Source of the DNA: Flavivirga jejuensis
GTDB taxonomy: Bacteria > Bacteroidota > Bacteroidia > Flavobacteriales > Flavobacteriaceae
Length of the DNA stretch: 64,000 nucleotides
Assembly: GCF_030540765.1 (NCBI RefSeq)
Contig: NZ_JAUOEL010000002.1
Span: 62,001 to 126,000 of the forward strand
Reading direction: 5' to 3'
In this document: one piece after another, positions 17,478-24,874 of the stretch
How positions within the stretch are numbered: the stretch's first letter is position 1
Layout of the letters: the number at the start of each line of letters is the position of its first letter
Translations under genes and position numbers: made by a program
The notes under the pieces: model-generated
What the model was told of the DNA's origin: nothing
Databases searched by the model: none
Seen by the model: the letters and a program-made list of their open reading frames with translations, nothing else

Positions 17478-18338
17478 ATGTTTAACAATTTATTTTCAAA
17501 AAAAGAATATAGTAGTAAGACAGGATTCTTCAAAGTTGAGAACAAAAAACTAATTCCAATAGACGAGTTAGAAAAAGGATCAATAAATGATTGCATTGAA
17601 AAAATAGGTTTTCCGACGAATCATATTTACACAATACATTCTTTTGATTCTGACAAAATATCTGTTTTAGGATTCAAAACTTTAACCAAAAGTCTTCAAT
17701 TTGTATTAGCTAAGAATCCTCAAACCAAAATTTCCTTTTCAGATGTTTCAATAGCGGTAAAAGGAATTGATTGGGAATTCGAGTATTCTGATTTAAATAT
17801 TGAGGACATTTTAAAAGAAGGTATAGATTATGAAAATTTTGACTTAAATTTTGTCAAATCAATACTTAATTTAACTAAAGAGGATAGAGATTTATATAAG
17901 TCTGAAGAACTTGGACTTTATCTTCTGTTCGAAAATGGAATACTTAAAGTATTTACTTCTTCAGAATGGGAGAATTCATCTACAAAATGGCTGAAAGATA
18001 TTAACAAAAAAATGTTTAGCAGTATGGTTAATGAAGCCAAACAATTTCATAGAAACGAAATTGAAGCAATGGAAGAGGTCAATAGACAAACCAAAGCTTT
18101 GATGGATGTCCCAAAAGCAATGAAAAACGAATTTTTAACATTACACAAAAACAAAAATGGAAATTTCAATTTCTATAATTTAGTAATAGCACATTACACC
18201 CAAGATTGTAATCAAAATGATTTTCTATTTATGAACAAAGGGAGATTAAAAAAGATTGATGAACAAACATTTGAAATCGGAAAGTTTAAATACGAATTCG
18301 ATATTAATAAACAATTAATAGGTGTTAACGAAAAATAA
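17478..18338 (+). CDS. Hypothetical soluble protein
   Basis: 286 residues, no signal peptide or membrane segment. It is charged and beta/alpha mixed. A central helix-rich part (about 185-225, KEAKQFHRNEIEAMEEVNRQ region) may form a short coiled coil. No family was recognised. It stands alone on the plus strand, divergent from the glycerol facilitator operon and separated by 166 nt from the oxidase fusion gene. The next gene has its own AT-rich upstream region, so co-transcription is uncertain. Confidence 0.65.
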   Translation: MFNNLFSKKEYSSKTGFFKVENKKLIPIDELEKGSINDCIEKIGFPTNHIYTIHSFDSDKISVLGFKTLTKSLQFVLAKNPQTKISFSDVSIAVKGIDWEFEYSDLNIEDILKEGIDYENFDLNFVKSILNLTKEDRDLYKSEELGLYLLFENGILKVFTSSEWENSSTKWLKDINKKMFSSMVNEAKQFHRNEIEAMEEVNRQTKALMDVPKAMKNEFLTLHKNKNGNFNFYNLVIAHYTQDCNQNDFLFMNKGRLKKIDEQTFEIGKFKYEFDINKQLIGVNEK

Positions 18339-18504: not shown

Positions 18505-21500
18505 ATGCACAAAAAATCAAATGACGAAAATGAAAAGAAACACCCTATCAAAGGAAAGCCTACTGCAAACAATGTAAAATGCTGGGATAGTGAAGGAAGC
18601 ACAGAAATAGTTACTCAACGTCTCAAAGAAATGTTTGTAGAAATGGGACAAAAAACCCGAATTGAAAAAGGACAAAAACCAGCAGAACGGTCCGTTTTCA
18701 GAAAACAACACGGTATTGCATATGGAGATTTCATTATTAATGATGATATTCCTGAAGAATTCAAAAAAGGGATTTTTGCTGGCAAATCATACAAATCTGT
18801 CATTCGTTTTTCTAGTGACACAGCTCCTACTTCTCCTGATTTGCACACAACTATAGGAGTTGGGTTAAAGCTTTTTGGTGTGGATGGCCCAAAGCTACTT
18901 GGAGAAGGAACTAATGCCGATTTCATCTTTCAAAATATAGATCGTTTTTTTGCTAGTGATGCGCAACAAATGTGCAGTTTTACAACGGCAGGAGTTATAG
19001 ATCGTGATTATGATTCCTACATCAATAAACACCCAAAGCTTGCCCATATTTTACAAGCCATGCTGAAAGAAGAAGCAAGCTGTTTGAGTGCAAGCTATTG
19101 GGCGATTTTACCATTCAAATTAGGAGAATCAAATATTGTAAAATATCGTTTGGTTCCTGACCATACTTATAAAGGCGCACCTTTTGATGATAATAATTAT
19201 TTAAAGTTAGATTTAGAAAAGCGTTTACGTAATGGCGATTCAACATTTAGATTTGAAATCCAACTACGCACCGATGATGCAACCATGCCATTGAATGATG
19301 CGCAAGTGGTCTGGAACACCGAAGACAGCCCTTATATTTGTATAGCAAAGTTACATTTACCACAACAAGATGTAACGGCTATTGGTCAAGCAGAATTTGG
19401 AAGGAACCTTTCTTTCAATATCTGGAGAACTTTAGAAGCACATAAACCATTAGGTAGTATTGCTGACGCTAGAAAAACAGTGTATGAAGCAAGTTCCGAA
19501 GCTCGACATCAGGCTAACGGTCAACAACAAGATGAACCAAAAGAAATAAATCCTCCTTTTGAGGGTAATACAGACGAAAATAGCAATTGTATTGTTAGAG
19601 CAGGAATCTATCCACCAATCGGAGTAATGCGAGTAGGAAATAGTGATGATGCATACTTTATTGGTCCTTTGGTTGATCAACCCGAAATAAAAGGAGACCC
19701 CTATGCATATCGAGATGAAACGGGAGCTATAAAACGACAAGCTGCCCAATTCAGAATTTATGGATTCAATGCCGCAGGAAAAGCCGTAAAAGAATTGACT
19801 ATGGAGAATGCAAACATTACATGGCATTCACATTTAGCAAATCAAAAATCATCATGGTATCAATTCCATATTGCATTAGATATTCCAGATGCATCCAACC
19901 CAAGCATACCTCCTTCTTTATTGAGAAATATTGATGTAAAAAACCGTGATGCATTGTTTATTGATGGTAAAAAAGAACGCATTTCTAAACCCAATGTAAC
20001 CTCAGGGAAAAAATTTAAAGGAAAATTCATGGGTGAATCGGTCTATCTCGGAGAAATGCGCACCGATGAAAAAGGGCGTTTAATCATGTTAGGAGGTCAT
20101 GGGAAATCGGAAAATATAAATGGTGACAGAGCCATTACTTTCGCAAATAATGAAGGTTGGTATGATGATATCTCCGACGGCCCTGTAACTGCAGAGGTAG
20201 AATACGAAGGTGTAAAACTTAATGTTGATCCATCTTGGGTGATTTGTGCGCCACCAGATTACGCTCCAATGCAAAAATCTGTGAGAACCATGTGGGATTT
20301 AATGCGAAGTGTTGCTGTTGAATCTGAAATGTTAGTAAGACCAGAAAGACCTTCTTTTGTTAAAGATATATTGCCCATTTTCGAAAGAATGACAAATTTG
20401 CAATGGGTAAATGCTGGATTCGCTGCTGCCTTTGGTTGGAACGGACAGTTTAATTACACAAGTAATGCGTGGGTAAAAAAATTAAATGATCCTTCATCTG
20501 CTAATTACGAAATGCGCCGTACAATCTCTAACAACTTTCGTCGATTTGATCAAACAGGGGCTGAAGCTCCACAATTATGGCCATGGTTGTATGGGGATGC
20601 TGTTGCAATTCCTTCGCAAGGCTCTGTTCGTCAACATTCTACTTTATCGAAATTACAATTGCAATTTTTAGATCAATGGGTTGAGGGGGATTTTGATGCT
20701 GACTTTATTGATACAACAGGATGTCCATATACTCCACCTCCAAAAACTATTGATGATTATCCTATTGATGAACAACCTGATATGCTAACCAAAGCAGCAA
20801 TGGATTTCTGTTTGGCAGATGCTTTTCACCCTGGTTGTGAAATGACCTGGCCTATGAGAACTTCGGGAATGTATTCACATCCTTTCCGATTGAAACATGC
20901 GCCTAAAAACCCAAAAACAGATTATCGTTACTATGGTTCAACTATGAATGGTGAGGCTTTGACTTCGCCTGCCGGACCGTTATTAGGAGGACAAGTGCCT
21001 GGCGGTGTTACAAGATGGATGGCCATTCCTTGGCAAACCGATACTGCAAGTTGTAGAGATGGCTATACAGCTTCTTACGATCCTTATTTACCAACATTTT
21101 GGCCTGCAAGAGTTCCTAACAATATCTTAAGTGAAGAGCGTTATAAAGAAACTTTAGATCAACATTTATCTGAAGAAACACGAAAAGAAGCATTTGCTTA
21201 TCGCTATTTTTGGTTAGATGATTTGCCATTGGATGGAGCTGCTCCAACCCAAACCAATCAAATTAATTCTATGGTGAAGTATTTTGACAAATTAGCGATC
21301 GTTCAGCATCGCCCTGGAGTAAATGACAATCCAAATTTCCCGACTGAGATGCAAATCGGTGTCATTCCAAATGAAGAACAAAATGCCCTGTTACTTAAAG
21401 AAACCGAAAACCGATTAAGAGATATTTTAAATAACAACAAGAACTTAGATAAAAAAGAAGATACGTTATTACAACTCACTCTAAAACACTTATCAAACGA

Positions 21501-21741
21501 AGGTTTACTCAACGAAGGCTATTTGCTAACGAGTACCCGTGATCAACTATTAGAGCTGGTAAAAGACGAATTGGTTAAGGATGAAAAACTAACAGGAGAA
21601 GTTGAGAAACTAATTAATTTATTAGCTTCGGAAGCACATAAATTCTCGAAAACAAAAACAGTTCCTCATGCGAGGCAACCACGAAAAGAAGTGGGAGTTC
21701 CAGAACGATTGGTTCGTTTCCAAACGTATATTCCAAAATAA
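18505..21741 (+). CDS. Catalase-like domain fused to LodA-type CTQ amino-acid oxidase
   Basis: 1078 residues, no classical signal peptide. Residues ~20-340 resemble the catalase superfamily. The proximal heme motif RxxxYxxxxxxR is intact (Arg323, Tyr327, Arg334), but the distal His of the RxxHxKxHG-type motif is Phe65. Residues ~362-1070 match LodA-type quinoproteins (YPPIGVMRVGNS at the start of the domain). The residues that would form cysteine tryptophylquinone are Cys778 in FHPGCEMTW and Trp843 in IPWQTD. They are 65 positions apart, the same as Cys516/Trp581 in Marinomonas LodA. LodA enzymes oxidise lysine or another amino acid and release H2O2 and NH3. The next gene encodes the LodB-type maturation partner. 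The fused heme-like domain may handle the peroxide or modify the chemistry; the substrate is unknown. Confidence 0.88.
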   Translation: MHKKSNDENEKKHPIKGKPTANNVKCWDSEGSTEIVTQRLKEMFVEMGQKTRIEKGQKPAERSVFRKQHGIAYGDFIINDDIPEEFKKGIFAGKSYKSVIRFSSDTAPTSPDLHTTIGVGLKLFGVDGPKLLGEGTNADFIFQNIDRFFASDAQQMCSFTTAGVIDRDYDSYINKHPKLAHILQAMLKEEASCLSASYWAILPFKLGESNIVKYRLVPDHTYKGAPFDDNNYLKLDLEKRLRNGDSTFRFEIQLRTDDATMPLNDAQVVWNTEDSPYICIAKLHLPQQDVTAIGQAEFGRNLSFNIWRTLEAHKPLGSIADARKTVYEASSEARHQANGQQQDEPKEINPPFEGNTDENSNCIVRAGIYPPIGVMRVGNSDDAYFIGPLVDQPEIKGDPYAYRDETGAIKRQAAQFRIYGFNAAGKAVKELTMENANITWHSHLANQKSSWYQFHIALDIPDASNPSIPPSLLRNIDVKNRDALFIDGKKERISKPNVTSGKKFKGKFMGESVYLGEMRTDEKGRLIMLGGHGKSENINGDRAITFANNEGWYDDISDGPVTAEVEYEGVKLNVDPSWVICAPPDYAPMQKSVRTMWDLMRSVAVESEMLVRPERPSFVKDILPIFERMTNLQWVNAGFAAAFGWNGQFNYTSNAWVKKLNDPSSANYEMRRTISNNFRRFDQTGAEAPQLWPWLYGDAVAIPSQGSVRQHSTLSKLQLQFLDQWVEGDFDADFIDTTGCPYTPPPKTIDDYPIDEQPDMLTKAAMDFCLADAFHPGCEMTWPMRTSGMYSHPFRLKHAPKNPKTDYRYYGSTMNGEALTSPAGPLLGGQVPGGVTRWMAIPWQTDTASCRDGYTASYDPYLPTFWPARVPNNILSEERYKETLDQHLSEETRKEAFAYRYFWLDDLPLDGAAPTQTNQINSMVKYFDKLAIVQHRPGVNDNPNFPTEMQIGVIPNEEQNALLLKETENRLRDILNNNKNLDKKEDTLLQLTLKHLSNEGLLNEGYLLTSTRDQLLELVKDELVKDEKLTGEVEKLINLLASEAHKFSKTKTVPHARQPRKEVGVPERLVRFQTYIPK

Positions 21742-21751
21742 AATCAATTTA

Positions 21752-22963
21752 TTGGATCAAAAAACAGACATTTTAATTATTGGTGGCGGCATTGCAGGTT
21801 GCATTGCTGCCATTTCTTTGATAGATACTTATCATGTAACCCTCATTGATAAACTTTCCGAACCTAAAGAAAGAATTGGAGAATCCTTAGCTCCTGCTGC
21901 GCTGCGAATTCTAAAACAACTCGATTTATTAGATGGGATGAAAAACCAGTTAGATCCTATCTATCAAACAAATTTTGGGATGCAGTCATATTGGGGAAGT
22001 GATCAAGTTCATATTGTAGATCATCTAAGAAATCCAGACGGATTTGTTAAAAACCTCAATAGAAAAGCATTTGAAAGTTATTTAAGAAAATCGGCCGAAA
22101 AGCGAGGCGTAAAGTGTTCGTGGAATACACAATTGTATAAAAGCACTTATCTAGATTCAAAATGGGAAGTTCAAGTAAAATCAAATGATAAAAACTCAGA
22201 AAATCATTCTATTTCTGCTTCTTTTGTGATTGATGCAAGCGGACGTCAATCTCATTTTGCCAGAAGCTTAGGAGTTAAACGTCAAATAGAAGATAAACTA
22301 ATTGCTTGTTGGATTACTTTACCAAATAACACAGAAAACACAATGAGTACTATTTCTGCCAGTGAGCATGGTTGGTGGTACAGTTCTGTTGTTCCAAACA
22401 ACAAACGTATAGTGGCTTTTCATACAGACGCTGATTTAATTACTAAGAACGAATTTAAAACTACCAAATCCTTTTTAAAACTATCTAAAGGGAATAAAGA
22501 GATTTCAGAATTACTCAAAAGCAATGAAAACACAATAGAATTTCAAGGAACTGTAGCTGCAAACTCTACCAAATTGGAACAGGTTGCAGATCAACAATGG
22601 GCCGCATTAGGAGACGCAGCAATTAGTTTTGACCCGCTTTCTTCTCAAGGCATGTTTCATGCCATGGCAAGTGCTTTACAACTTAAAGAATTGATTATTA
22701 AATTTGATTTCATAGCTGACCTAAATTCTCAAAAAATGGAAAAGTTTAAAGCAGCATACACTAATCAAATTGAAGAAATATGGAAACATTATCTCAAACA
22801 CAAAAAGATTTTTTACGGTGTGGAAATGCGCTGGAAAGAGGCCTCTTTTTGGAGAAGAAGACATGATATATCTGATAAGGTTAATGTTCCTATGAAAAGC
22901 GAAAAAATGTTGTCCGCAATAACAAACACGTCCAAAGATAAACGATCAAATTTCACACCATAA
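21752..22963 (+). CDS. LodB-like FAD-dependent oxidoreductase (CTQ maturation partner)
   Basis: About 403 residues. The Rossmann signature ILIIGGGIAGC begins about eight residues from the chosen start, and a second FAD motif, ALGDAAISFDPLSSQG, lies near residue 290. The overall plan is that of tryptophan-halogenase/geranylgeranyl-reductase type flavoproteins, to which LodB belongs. LodB is required to form the quinone cofactor in LodA. I chose TTG at 21752, eleven nt after the oxidase stop. An ATG at 21668 in the same frame would add 28 residues and overlap the oxidase gene by 74 nt; those residues look like a shadow of the upstream reading frame. Gene adjacency and order (LodA then LodB) match known Lod pairs. 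Confidence 0.85.
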   Translation: MDQKTDILIIGGGIAGCIAAISLIDTYHVTLIDKLSEPKERIGESLAPAALRILKQLDLLDGMKNQLDPIYQTNFGMQSYWGSDQVHIVDHLRNPDGFVKNLNRKAFESYLRKSAEKRGVKCSWNTQLYKSTYLDSKWEVQVKSNDKNSENHSISASFVIDASGRQSHFARSLGVKRQIEDKLIACWITLPNNTENTMSTISASEHGWWYSSVVPNNKRIVAFHTDADLITKNEFKTTKSFLKLSKGNKEISELLKSNENTIEFQGTVAANSTKLEQVADQQWAALGDAAISFDPLSSQGMFHAMASALQLKELIIKFDFIADLNSQKMEKFKAAYTNQIEEIWKHYLKHKKIFYGVEMRWKEASFWRRRHDISDKVNVPMKSEKMLSAITNTSKDKRSNFTP

Positions 22964-23049: not shown

Positions 23050-23892
23050 TTAGTTTAGTTGGTCTACTATATTTTGTAGACTCTCTAATACTTCTTCGTA
23101 AGAGAACGTTTTATGTGTTTCTAAAATTTGATTAATCAGTATACTGTATTCTTTCTTGTCTATTGTATCCTTCAAAATTTGGTTAACCGTTTCCAAATCT
23201 TGAGGATACCCTTTTAAGATTTTCGAAACATCTATACCTAATAATGTTGCCCCTCCATTCAGAATGGTAAAATCATCAATATAGACTTCTTCATAATGAT
23301 TTGCAGCTGCTCTTTCTTCATTAATTATCAAATAGTTTTCTAAGATGAAACCGATATCGTCTGCATCTTTATTACTTTTATAATGTCGGTCTTTCCACGC
23401 TGTAATCTTTAAGAGAAATATTCCGCCCAGAGAAGCTATTTGAATTTCTATTTCTTGATCAATATTTACTTTAAGAGAAGCTTCGTTGGCAGCATTAAAC
23501 CCTAATACAGACATAGCAAAATTTTCATCAGGTGGCCAGAATATTTTACTGTCTTGTTTCATGATATCTCCAAAAGGTACAATGTCTAATTGGAATTTCT
23601 CTTTATATAAAAACCGCTGTTTCTGATCGGCATCCTTACTAAAGTTTTCAAGATTTACTATCTCCCCTTCAACTTTTTGCCATTGTTCCCAATCGTTAAC
23701 GGTTATCGCTATATCCAGGTCATAGGTTAAACGCCCAGATTTTTCATTATGTAATTCCATAATGATATCTCTGGCTGTAGCTCCAATCACAAAAAAGGAA
23801 ATTCTAGCTTGCTTAAAATACTCAGTCAGTTCTAACAGAATGGGCTTTAATAGTGGATGTGTAAATTTATCACTAGATATATCTAAGCTCAT
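23050..23892 (-). CDS. AbiEii-like nucleotidyltransferase toxin
   Basis: 280 residues with a nucleotidyltransferase core: IGATARD near residue 37 and YDLDIAI near residue 58 with the metal-binding Asp pair, then KEKFQLDIVPFGD as the third acidic position. The C-terminal half is helical, including LKITAWKDRHYKSNKDADDI, as in AbiEii/MenT-type proteins. AbiEii toxins modify RNA (for MenT-type, tRNA ends) and stop growth, typically as phage defence. The gene overlaps the antitoxin gene by 20 nt and follows it, the normal AbiE order. Confidence 0.82.
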   Translation of the reverse strand: MSLDISSDKFTHPLLKPILLELTEYFKQARISFFVIGATARDIIMELHNEKSGRLTYDLDIAITVNDWEQWQKVEGEIVNLENFSKDADQKQRFLYKEKFQLDIVPFGDIMKQDSKIFWPPDENFAMSVLGFNAANEASLKVNIDQEIEIQIASLGGIFLLKITAWKDRHYKSNKDADDIGFILENYLIINEERAAANHYEEVYIDDFTILNGGATLLGIDVSKILKGYPQDLETVNQILKDTIDKKEYSILINQILETHKTFSYEEVLESLQNIVDQLN

Positions 23893-24874
23893 TTTCTAGT
23901 ATTTGTTTAGCTGTCTCTATATTTCTACTAAAACCACTATTAATTAAATCAGCATACACTAAAAGTGCAGGTGCTGTTTTATTATTTCCTAAATCGTTTT
24001 TCCAGAATTTTAATAATATTTCGACTTCACCGTCTTCACTTGGAACAAGTTTTAGCGATCTTGCTACTTCAGATAAATCTAGATCAGTAAAAAGAGTGAA
24101 TTTTTCTGGTCTTAAATTCTCTGTTAGAATTGCTCCACCTGGTTCACCCCCCCATAAAATATAACCATCATTAATATGTGTATTGATGTTTCGCCATTGA
24201 TGTTGAAAATCGTTATCAAGAAATTTCATTTTTTTTCTCATTATACGGGGTCTTAATACTTCATTAAATTCAACAATCCAGCGCTCAAGTAATTCAGTTT
24301 TATTTTTTAGAACACGCTTGTCATTAGTCTTTAAAATAAAATTCAAATCTTCTAATTCTGCCATCACATTACTCACAGACCCAATAGAAACATCAGCGTT
24401 CTCTGCGATTTTCCTATAAGAATCTTGAAGGTGTTCTGGCTTATATAATAAGTGAAATAGAATCTTTAAACCAGCTTCCTGAAAAGCTCGAGATTGGTTT
24501 GTTTTTTCTTTTTTAGCTTTCTTTTGACCTTCAATAAAAATCACTAGATTATTTTTTTTTATAAAAGTATTACCTGCTATATCTATATAATTAATACCAT
24601 GATCTTTAAGCATCTCTGCTGCCTTTTTAGAAATGTATTCCGCTATTAGAATAACTGGCCTGTTACTATTATGCTTCACCTCCTTTAATTGAGACAATAC
24701 CAAACCTTGATTTGAAGTTCTTACAGCAGATTTTGCTTCTACGATAAATTGCTCATCTTTGATGTTTAAAAGGACATCATAGTTCTGTCTACTACTATCT
24801 ATTTCGACAGGAATATTGATAAGTTGTTCTAGCTTAGAAGTAGCCTCGTATATGAAGTCATTATTACGATACAT
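23873..24874 (-). CDS. AbiEi-like type IV antitoxin and autorepressor
   Basis: 333 residues. The N-terminal ~120 residues look like a restriction-endonuclease-type fold (DVLLNIKDEQFIVEAKS, GINYIDIAGNTFI). A winged helix follows at ~130-200 (YRKIAENADVSIGSVSNVMAELEDLNF region), and then the C-terminal antitoxin part. AbiEi proteins neutralise the AbiEii toxin without binding it and repress their own promoter through repeats; inverted repeats are present immediately upstream (24881-24939). The toxin gene follows with a 20-nt overlap. Confidence 0.82.
   Translation of the reverse strand: MYRNNDFIYEATSKLEQLINIPVEIDSSRQNYDVLLNIKDEQFIVEAKSAVRTSNQGLVLSQLKEVKHNSNRPVILIAEYISKKAAEMLKDHGINYIDIAGNTFIKKNNLVIFIEGQKKAKKEKTNQSRAFQEAGLKILFHLLYKPEHLQDSYRKIAENADVSIGSVSNVMAELEDLNFILKTNDKRVLKNKTELLERWIVEFNEVLRPRIMRKKMKFLDNDFQHQWRNINTHINDGYILWGGEPGGAILTENLRPEKFTLFTDLDLSEVARSLKLVPSEDGEVEILLKFWKNDLGNNKTAPALLVYADLINSGFSRNIETAKQILENELRYI

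Follow-up and report, generated by a model that had tools for sequence, protein, structure and literature searches.

The gene analysed here lies in a stretch of 64,000 nucleotides from Flavivirga jejuensis (contig NZ_JAUOEL010000002.1, positions 62,001 to 126,000, assembly GCF_030540765.1; the whole stretch is called the window below). It encodes, in a single uninterrupted open reading frame (ORF; 18505-21741, + strand) of 1078 amino acids, a protein which almost certainly consists of two parts, a catalase-like domain at the N-terminus and a quinoprotein oxidase of the LodA/GoxA family at the C-terminus. Our main finding is that in the catalase-like domain a phenylalanine, Phe65, stands where catalases have the distal heme histidine, and that the same residue is present in 87 out of 87 sampled LodA-linked domains having this position, from three phyla, and in none of the 93 other domains. 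That all sampled relatives share this phenylalanine points to a role of the domain other than the destruction of peroxide. The putative heme-ligand tyrosine and the remainder of the pocket are kept. The reading we favour, with a probability of about 0.4, is that its heme would perform a second reaction on the product of the oxidase or with its peroxide.

The fusion itself is not new. Campillo-Brocal et al. (2015; PMC4417212, Table 3) listed 21 LodA-like proteins that carry a pfam00199/cd08152 domain at the N-terminus, all of group III, and in the accessible part of their paper the extra domain is assigned no function and experimental work is called for. This publication, together with the catalase-fold/hydroperoxide-making oxidase fusions known in corals (PMC5617202), takes away the novelty that the original prediction on this DNA had claimed for the protein, that of a new enzyme type.

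The distal position in fused and free-standing domains

Relatives were collected by a genome scan with nine LodA-linked domains, whose patterns do not contain residue 65 and which found 160 relatives, 80 of which were kept. To these were added surveys of overlapping genome sets, with 42 genomes having a match among 398 Pseudomonadota, 5 among 199 Acidobacteriota (the phylum of locus L075), 29 among 199 of the family to which the genome of locus L110 belongs, 7 among 149 of the window's own family and 14 among 296 of its order, and 13 among 296 of its phylum searched with the single domain; the 26 genomes behind named loci were also covered. At most 30 loci were aligned per survey, the unaligned remainder being mostly weaker matches, and the pooled set contains 182 distinct domains. 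The Actinomycetota and cyanobacterial fusions of PMC4417212 lie outside this sampling, phyla were assigned from record titles, and loci classified as free-standing were viewed with about 1.5 kb of flanking DNA.

The search for fusions of the same order, suggested with the original prediction, was productive: both parts are in one ORF in 79 of the 80 related loci, the 80th (L099) being cut by a contig edge. Among the 79, frame breaks occur in the catalase-like part of L094 and in the oxidase part of L092. Two members of the published list were recovered, from Flavobacterium soli DSM 19725 (L095, 1072 amino acids) and Tenacibaculum ovolyticum DSM 18103 (L052, 1061 amino acids), with lengths equal to the published ones and Phe at the distal position in both.

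All 83 fused rows of the pooled set with a residue at position 65 have Phe (one more row has a gap), and the 97 free rows with a letter (one more gap) divide into 90 His, 2 Asn, 1 Gln and 4 Phe. These four Phe rows all turned out to be linked to LodA: L099 reaches a contig end, L023 and L094 are broken fusion genes, and the fourth is L165. By motif and length, at least three rows with His (L117-L119) resemble true catalases, and distal Asn or Gln is found in the free-standing L210, L211 and L212 of the Acidobacteriota sample, in which the distal His was lost, not to Phe. The Phe65 codons of 83 LodA-linked rows are TTT in 52 and TTC in 31. That Phe65 might be a sequencing error or a local anomaly, the latter being the outcome that would have undone the original prediction, is rejected by its presence in all the LodA-linked domains, and the replacement appears to be clade-wide. 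A literature search, with most subscription journals outside its coverage, found neither a paper dealing with the distal residue in the fusions nor an account of its clade-wide fixation.

A tree of 99 domains was built after removing column 65, thinning rows more than 90% identical and dropping L116 and two fragments of L094. It places the LodA-linked domains on one side of a branch supported by a Shimodaira-Hasegawa-like approximate likelihood ratio (SH-aLRT) value of 98, and residue 65 changes once; the change from His to Phe would have occurred before the sampled LodA-linked domains diverged. A second tree, of 45 LodA rows thinned at more than 85% identity, does not join the fused members into one group: it has at least three changes, with unfused oxidases interspersed, and the query falls among the fused members on this tree, which is ours and not the published group III tree. 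The pattern agrees with a single old partnership that was later lost or split in places, and separate fusions of one partner lineage may also have produced it.

The partnership extends to one case without covalent fusion. In genome G796 (Pseudomonadota) the Phe-type domain is a separate gene for 635 amino acids (L180:7201-9105), directly after an unfused lodA (796 amino acids) and lodB, so that the link between domain and oxidase also holds without the fusion. In the same operon the LodA protein (L180:3566-5953) is longer by about 150 residues at its N-terminus, and the Phe-type protein by about 290 at its C-terminus, the latter extension having no significant Pfam match. LodA is present in 12 of the same 398 Pseudomonadota genomes, and four of these (G461, G444, G662 and G796) are among the 42 with a domain match; G662, one of the genomes with unfused LodA, carries a free-standing His-type relative on a different contig.

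Three further observations concern particular loci. In Acinetobacter sp. ANC 4805 a His-type free-standing relative (L109:10903-12051) lies about 0.8 kb downstream of a Phe-type fusion operon. In Sinorhizobium medicae and S. meliloti (L023, L209) the fusion gene, located on plasmids, is in pieces, and lodB matches persist (341 amino acids and a piece of 116). The free-standing catalase-like protein L115:1462-3030 has a C-terminal Polyketide_cyc2 match just under the cut-off (E 3.4e-5), possibly another fusion.

Fold and heme pocket of the N-terminal domain

The score of the N-terminal domain with the Pfam Catalase family (PF00199) is sub-threshold (13.6 bits versus a cut-off of 25, E 0.036). 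A phmmer search with the single domain gave only weak matches, such as that to the coral allene oxide synthase (cAOS; E 0.051), and a family profile was needed. Against solved structures, a profile of 13 rows matched a 33 kDa mycobacterial catalase-related protein with E 1.2e-17 and, as best catalase, 6rjr with E 7.6e-14. The full-length AlphaFold2 model has a mean predicted local distance difference test score (pLDDT) of 68.6, falling below 50 at residues 775-793 and 844-870 around the site of the cysteine tryptophylquinone (CTQ) cofactor, and with it Foldseek returned only LodA/GoxA among the 50 matches listed. As the oxidase part filled that list, the N-terminal domain was modelled alone (mean pLDDT 85.7). 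VIA-align of this model gave Z of 22.5-24.3 to catalases, cAOS and 3e4y among the matches listed, including 24.3 for 3e4y (3.4 Å over 273 residues), 23.8 for the coral allene oxide synthase-lipoxygenase (AOS-LOX) 3dy5 and 23.2 for human catalase 8el9; the chanoclavine synthase EasC (9jdb) was also listed. As modelled, the N-terminal domain has the core fold of catalases. With the single ORF and the two LodA Pfam domains of the C-terminal part, these matches bear out the fusion as originally described.

The pocket was assigned by alignment. Phe65 occupies the distal-His position in alignments to catalase-type rows, and Arg323, Tyr327 and Arg334 align with the R...Y......R motif of 6rjr and of 3e4w in the profile alignment. 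Both the loss of the distal His and the retention of the proximal Tyr with its flanking arginines had been proposed from the sequence, and both held. Because the alignment of the query to the catalase-like L118 and L119 breaks down at the proximal end, the assignment of Tyr327 rests on the family-profile alignment. Compared with a monofunctional heme catalase, the domain possesses the proximal Tyr and the pocket Arg and Asn, has Phe instead of the distal His, and stays under the Pfam gathering score. In cAOS, the residues R64, R102, R360, H67, N137 and Y353 match those of catalase (PMC5617202), and all of this set but the His is kept in the fusion domain, as judged through catalase-type alignments, none of them made directly to cAOS.

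Tyr327, Arg323, Arg334 and Asn144 are each unvarying in 84 of 84 fused rows. In a set of 80 fused rows, ten pocket positions (Arg62, Val64, Phe65, Arg101, Ser103, Asn144, Phe149, Arg323, Tyr327 and Arg334) are all invariant, whereas invariant columns number 66 out of 316 overall; the hypergeometric P of 9e-8 is a guide and not a strict probability, since the positions were picked from knowledge of catalases, the rows share ancestry and the scan itself partly selects for Asn144. This invariance weakens the idea of a structural relic, one of the two options offered originally. Twenty-six further columns, including Gln143 and Arg308, tell LodA-linked from free-standing domains, which suggests an altered pocket or interface rather than drift. 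We consider it likely that heme is bound through Tyr327, and, with slightly more assurance, that the domain is not an effective catalase.

The oxidase half and its operon

The C-terminal part has the marks of the LodA/GoxA family: LodA_N and LodA_C, the CTQ Cys and Trp, and an adjoining lodB-like gene (Table 1). The equivalog cut-offs for lysine oxidase LodA and glycine oxidase GoxA proper (600 and 750 bits) are missed, with 170.5 and 396.2 bits respectively. The oxidase half probably makes CTQ and releases H2O2 from an amino acid or amine.

The cofactor residues differ from those first proposed, Cys778 and Trp843, which had been argued from the 65-residue spacing of LodA. In LodA the cofactor residues are C516 and W581 (PMC4417212). 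Cys516 closes the motif PWQADFFNC (3weu row, counted by hand), whose counterpart in the query, PWQTDTASC, ends at Cys850; the match between query and LodA runs out at query 851, equivalent to LodA 517, so that Cys516 corresponds to Cys850. In PlGoxA (6vmf), Cys682 aligns to Cys850 and the residue written X at position 697 to Trp866 (both counted by hand), while LodA Trp581 lies beyond the alignment and is equated with Trp866 by family reasoning. Cys850 is present in 99 of 99 LodA domains (82 fused and 17 unfused) and position 866 is Trp in 95 of the 96 rows with a letter (one Tyr, three gaps). His775 is kept in 82 of 82 fused and 12 of 17 unfused domains. Cys778 is present in all 82 fused domains and in only 7 of the 17 unfused. 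The pair Cys778/Trp843 is therefore rejected: by alignment the CTQ pair is Cys850/Trp866, 16 residues apart, and the 65-residue gap on which the earlier assignment was argued is a coincidence.

Table 1. Features of the fusion gene and of the adjoining maturase gene, in window coordinates
Feature	Coordinates	Strand	Basis
Catalase-fold/LodA-family fusion protein	18505..21741	+	Both parts in one ORF in 79/80 related loci
Minimal catalase-fold domain, Phe-type, residues ~30-345	18592..19539	+	AlphaFold2 model, fold matches, family profile
Phe65, replaces distal heme His	18697..18699	+	Alignments to catalase-type rows and relatives
Asn144, equivalent of catalase distal Asn	18934..18936	+	Aligned to second N of GNN in catalase-like L118/L119
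Proximal helix: Arg323, Tyr327 (putative heme-ligand Tyr), Arg334	19471..19506	+	Profile alignment to 6rjr, 3e4w
LodA_N, residues 369-581	19609..20247	+	Pfam PF17990, E 2.8e-75, 253.4 bits (cut-off 26.3)
LodA_C, residues 705-866	20617..21102	+	Pfam PF18417, E 2e-40, 138.4 bits (cut-off 25)
His775, equivalent of PlGoxA His583	20827..20829	+	Alignment (position counted by hand); PlGoxA mutants in PDB titles
Cys778, CTQ Cys of the original prediction; by alignment not a cofactor residue	20836..20838	+	Ile in LodA, Val in PlGoxA
Asp846, equivalent of PlGoxA Asp678	21040..21042	+	Alignment; PlGoxA mutants in PDB titles; 99/99 LodA domains
Cys850, CTQ cysteine (LodA Cys516)	21052..21054	+	Alignments to LodA, PlGoxA
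Trp866, CTQ tryptophan (PlGoxA 697; LodA Trp581 by family reasoning)	21100..21102	+	Alignment, family columns
Helical C-terminal tail, residues ~950-1078, low confidence	21352..21738	+	AlphaFold2 pLDDT mostly <60 beyond residue 970
LodB/GoxB-like flavoprotein maturase	21668..22963	+	NCBIfam LodB E 1.5e-73, GoxB E 5.4e-66

The maturase ORF scores under the NCBIfam equivalog cut-off for both LodB and GoxB, and its start is probably the TTG at 21752, 10 nucleotides past the lodA stop. A lodB-like gene follows on the 3' side, on the same strand and overlapping or at most about 400 nucleotides away, in 77 of the 80 loci, the other three stopping at a contig edge. For the cofactor of LodA itself, LodB suffices. 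By ORF length, many Pseudomonadota fusions have about 970-1040 amino acids versus about 1060-1105 in Bacteroidota.

Other genes near these operons can be described briefly. Just upstream of the fusion gene in the window, a 286-amino-acid ORF (17478-18338, +) has no Pfam, NCBIfam or PADLOC match, and downstream lies a pair of overlapping ORFs (23050-24874, -), one of which (23050-23892) is nucleotidyltransferase-like by eye, with a weak PADLOC match (PDC-M21B, E 3.4e-5). The host genome has a second LodA-like gene, unfused (G000:C23:120543-121562; L002, L202; 702 amino acids), with a lodB-like neighbour, and its product is nearer to LodA (E 8e-43) than to GoxA (E 2e-17). A family of proteins of 466-502 amino acids accompanies the fused operon, at varying positions, in 9 of 84 loci, from Tenacibaculum, Pseudoalteromonas and Flavobacterium soli (L052:10574-12079 on the - strand, L047, L049, L050, L053, L054, L078, L081 and L095); in L052 the N-terminus is lipoprotein-like, no Pfam family reaches the threshold (Cytochrome_P460, E 0.059), and no member was found in the window.

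Possible functions and comparison with known systems

The mechanism we propose starts from the family to which the oxidase belongs. The C-terminal quinoprotein, with CTQ at Cys850/Trp866 and matured with the LodB-like flavoprotein, would oxidatively deaminate an amino acid or an amine and release H2O2, and the minimal catalase fold in front of it would hold heme through Tyr327. Its catalase activity would have been switched off by the His-to-Phe change in the ancestor of the LodA-linked domains, which makes sense because there would be no point in joining a working catalase to an enzyme that makes peroxide, and the domain would since have been kept under purifying selection as the partner of the oxidase, usually in the same chain and once as the third gene of the operon. 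Since the heme half keeps its ligand and an invariant pocket, we suggest that the heme does something: a second, non-catalatic reaction, either with the peroxide of the oxidase or on its product (an aldehyde, an imine or a keto acid), by analogy with coral AOS-LOX. A more specific version, which we regard as rather doubtful, is a peroxide relay in which the Tyr-ligated heme would use both the H2O2 of the quinone domain and the oxidised product, in a monooxygenase-, peroxygenase- or dehydratase-type reaction within the same chain. To our knowledge, such relay chemistry has not been described for the catalase fold.

Several results weigh against this second reaction. Fifteen unfused LodA loci (L193-L202, L204-L208), viewed with about 8 kb of DNA on either side, have a lodB-like gene and no catalase-like gene, and some of these oxidases are about half identical to the LodA part of the query; a further unfused locus, L031, likewise has no catalase-like gene within about 2.5 kb. 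The idea that the oxidase needs this domain is too strong and was rejected on these loci: among the loci sampled, the Phe-type domain accompanies LodA, and LodA does not need the domain. A conserved pathway was sought around the operon in 84 loci, and beyond lodB the most widespread neighbour family occurs in only 13, so that the neighbourhoods reveal no common pathway that would handle a second product. Because Phe65 represents one evolutionary event, the 87 Phe rows are not independent, and the domain tree that indicates this single event was made, as was the LodA tree, by a quick method giving long-branch warnings. The model has moderate pLDDT near residues 51-70 (block means of 74 and 70). 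Finally, the constancy of Gln143 and Asn144 is partly built in, one of the two scan patterns holding this pair (rows L033-L112); the pair is also present in rows found without these patterns (L022, L165, L209 and L252).

A second reaction remains our first choice, and next to it we place, as a tentative alternative, a silenced catalase acting as a non-catalytic heme or scaffold module for assembly, stability or the sensing of peroxide or redox state, in which Phe65 would spare the peroxide that is released. L-Amino acid oxidases are described as antimicrobial through H2O2 (PMC4417212), Phe arose in the LodA-linked stem as a conflict between making and destroying peroxide would predict, and the separate protein of G796 is what an accessory could be; the invariance of the ligand Tyr and of the pocket arginines, however, exceeds the needs of a scaffold, and the 15 unfused loci manage without it. 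That the domain is a degenerate relic carried along by the fusion is very improbable: the lost distal His and the sub-threshold Pfam score agree with decay, but the pocket is invariant in 80 rows from three phyla and the separate gene of G796 is intact.

Two other roles would make direct use of the peroxide, and we find both improbable. The heme domain could help to mature the cofactor by using peroxide to finish the oxidation of CTQ, as MauG completes tryptophan tryptophylquinone (TTQ) by a peroxide-dependent oxidation. Such a helper might well be a heme-type domain that is joined to the protein being matured and travels with lodA and lodB, but the 15 unfused loci have a LodB-like gene without such a domain, and LodB is itself described as the protein required to make the LodA cofactor (PMC4417212). 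Alternatively, the domain could still remove peroxide and protect the oxidase, His69 or Gln143 standing in for the distal His: His69 is found in 82 of the 83 fused rows with a letter, Gln143 in 81 of 81 (partly built into the scan pattern), and cAOS and cHPL of C. imbricata show that catalase rates vary widely among catalase-related domains (PMC5617202). However, His69 is also found in 72 of the 97 free rows with a letter, 90 of which have the distal His, so that it is not a compensation, and the predicted catalytic residues of KatE include its distal His128 (PMC8699984). The host genome moreover encodes a KatG-like peroxidase, with two PF00141 matches in one frame of 761 amino acids, so that peroxide removal need not fall to the fusion protein; it shows no PF00199 match at E 0.001, in a search that also misses the fusion protein's own domain, and no second y4iL-type relative was found in it.

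On our tree, a residue regarded as essential for splitting peroxide was replaced once, and it is Phe in every sampled LodA-linked case, in at least three phyla, beside a quinoprotein that probably makes peroxide. The free-standing His-type relatives, the unfused oxidases and the split-gene version form a natural control set, and the role of the extra domain, a question left from 2015, can now be approached with few constructs.

Among known systems, LodA (lysine 6-oxidase) and PlGoxA (glycine oxidase) belong to the same family as the oxidase half, which keeps the CTQ Cys and Trp and the equivalents of PlGoxA His583 and Asp678; unlike the query they have no catalase-like domain, and their identity to it in structural alignments is 21-23%. 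The nearest free-standing relatives of the N-terminal domain are of the y4iL type, with phmmer E values of 1.3e-33 for a gene named catalase on pNGR234a (L024), which we take to be y4iL although the record does not have this name, and of 1.8e-44 for a Nostoc protein (L025). In contrast to the domain studied here, y4iL-type proteins are unfused, and the distal His is present in 90 of the 93 rows without a link to LodA. The best match among solved structures, by profile and by fold, is the 33 kDa catalase-related protein of Mycobacterium avium subsp. paratuberculosis (3e4w/3e4y), which is free-standing and keeps the His (motif CRALHAK), whereas the query domain is fused and has Phe. The fusions of PMC4417212 agree with the query in their domains, in the order of these and roughly in length; their distal residue, treated here, is not discussed in the accessible part of that paper. 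A precedent comes from corals, in which catalase-fold heme pockets have been re-purposed for other chemistry in allene oxide synthase and hydroperoxide lyase: the AOS-LOX and hydroperoxide lyase-LOX proteins (PMC5617202; 3dy5) likewise join an N-terminal catalase-fold heme domain to a C-terminal oxidase making hydroperoxides, but cAOS keeps its distal His67 and works with a lipoxygenase and an organic peroxide, while the fusion described here combines Phe65 with an oxidase of the LodA type.

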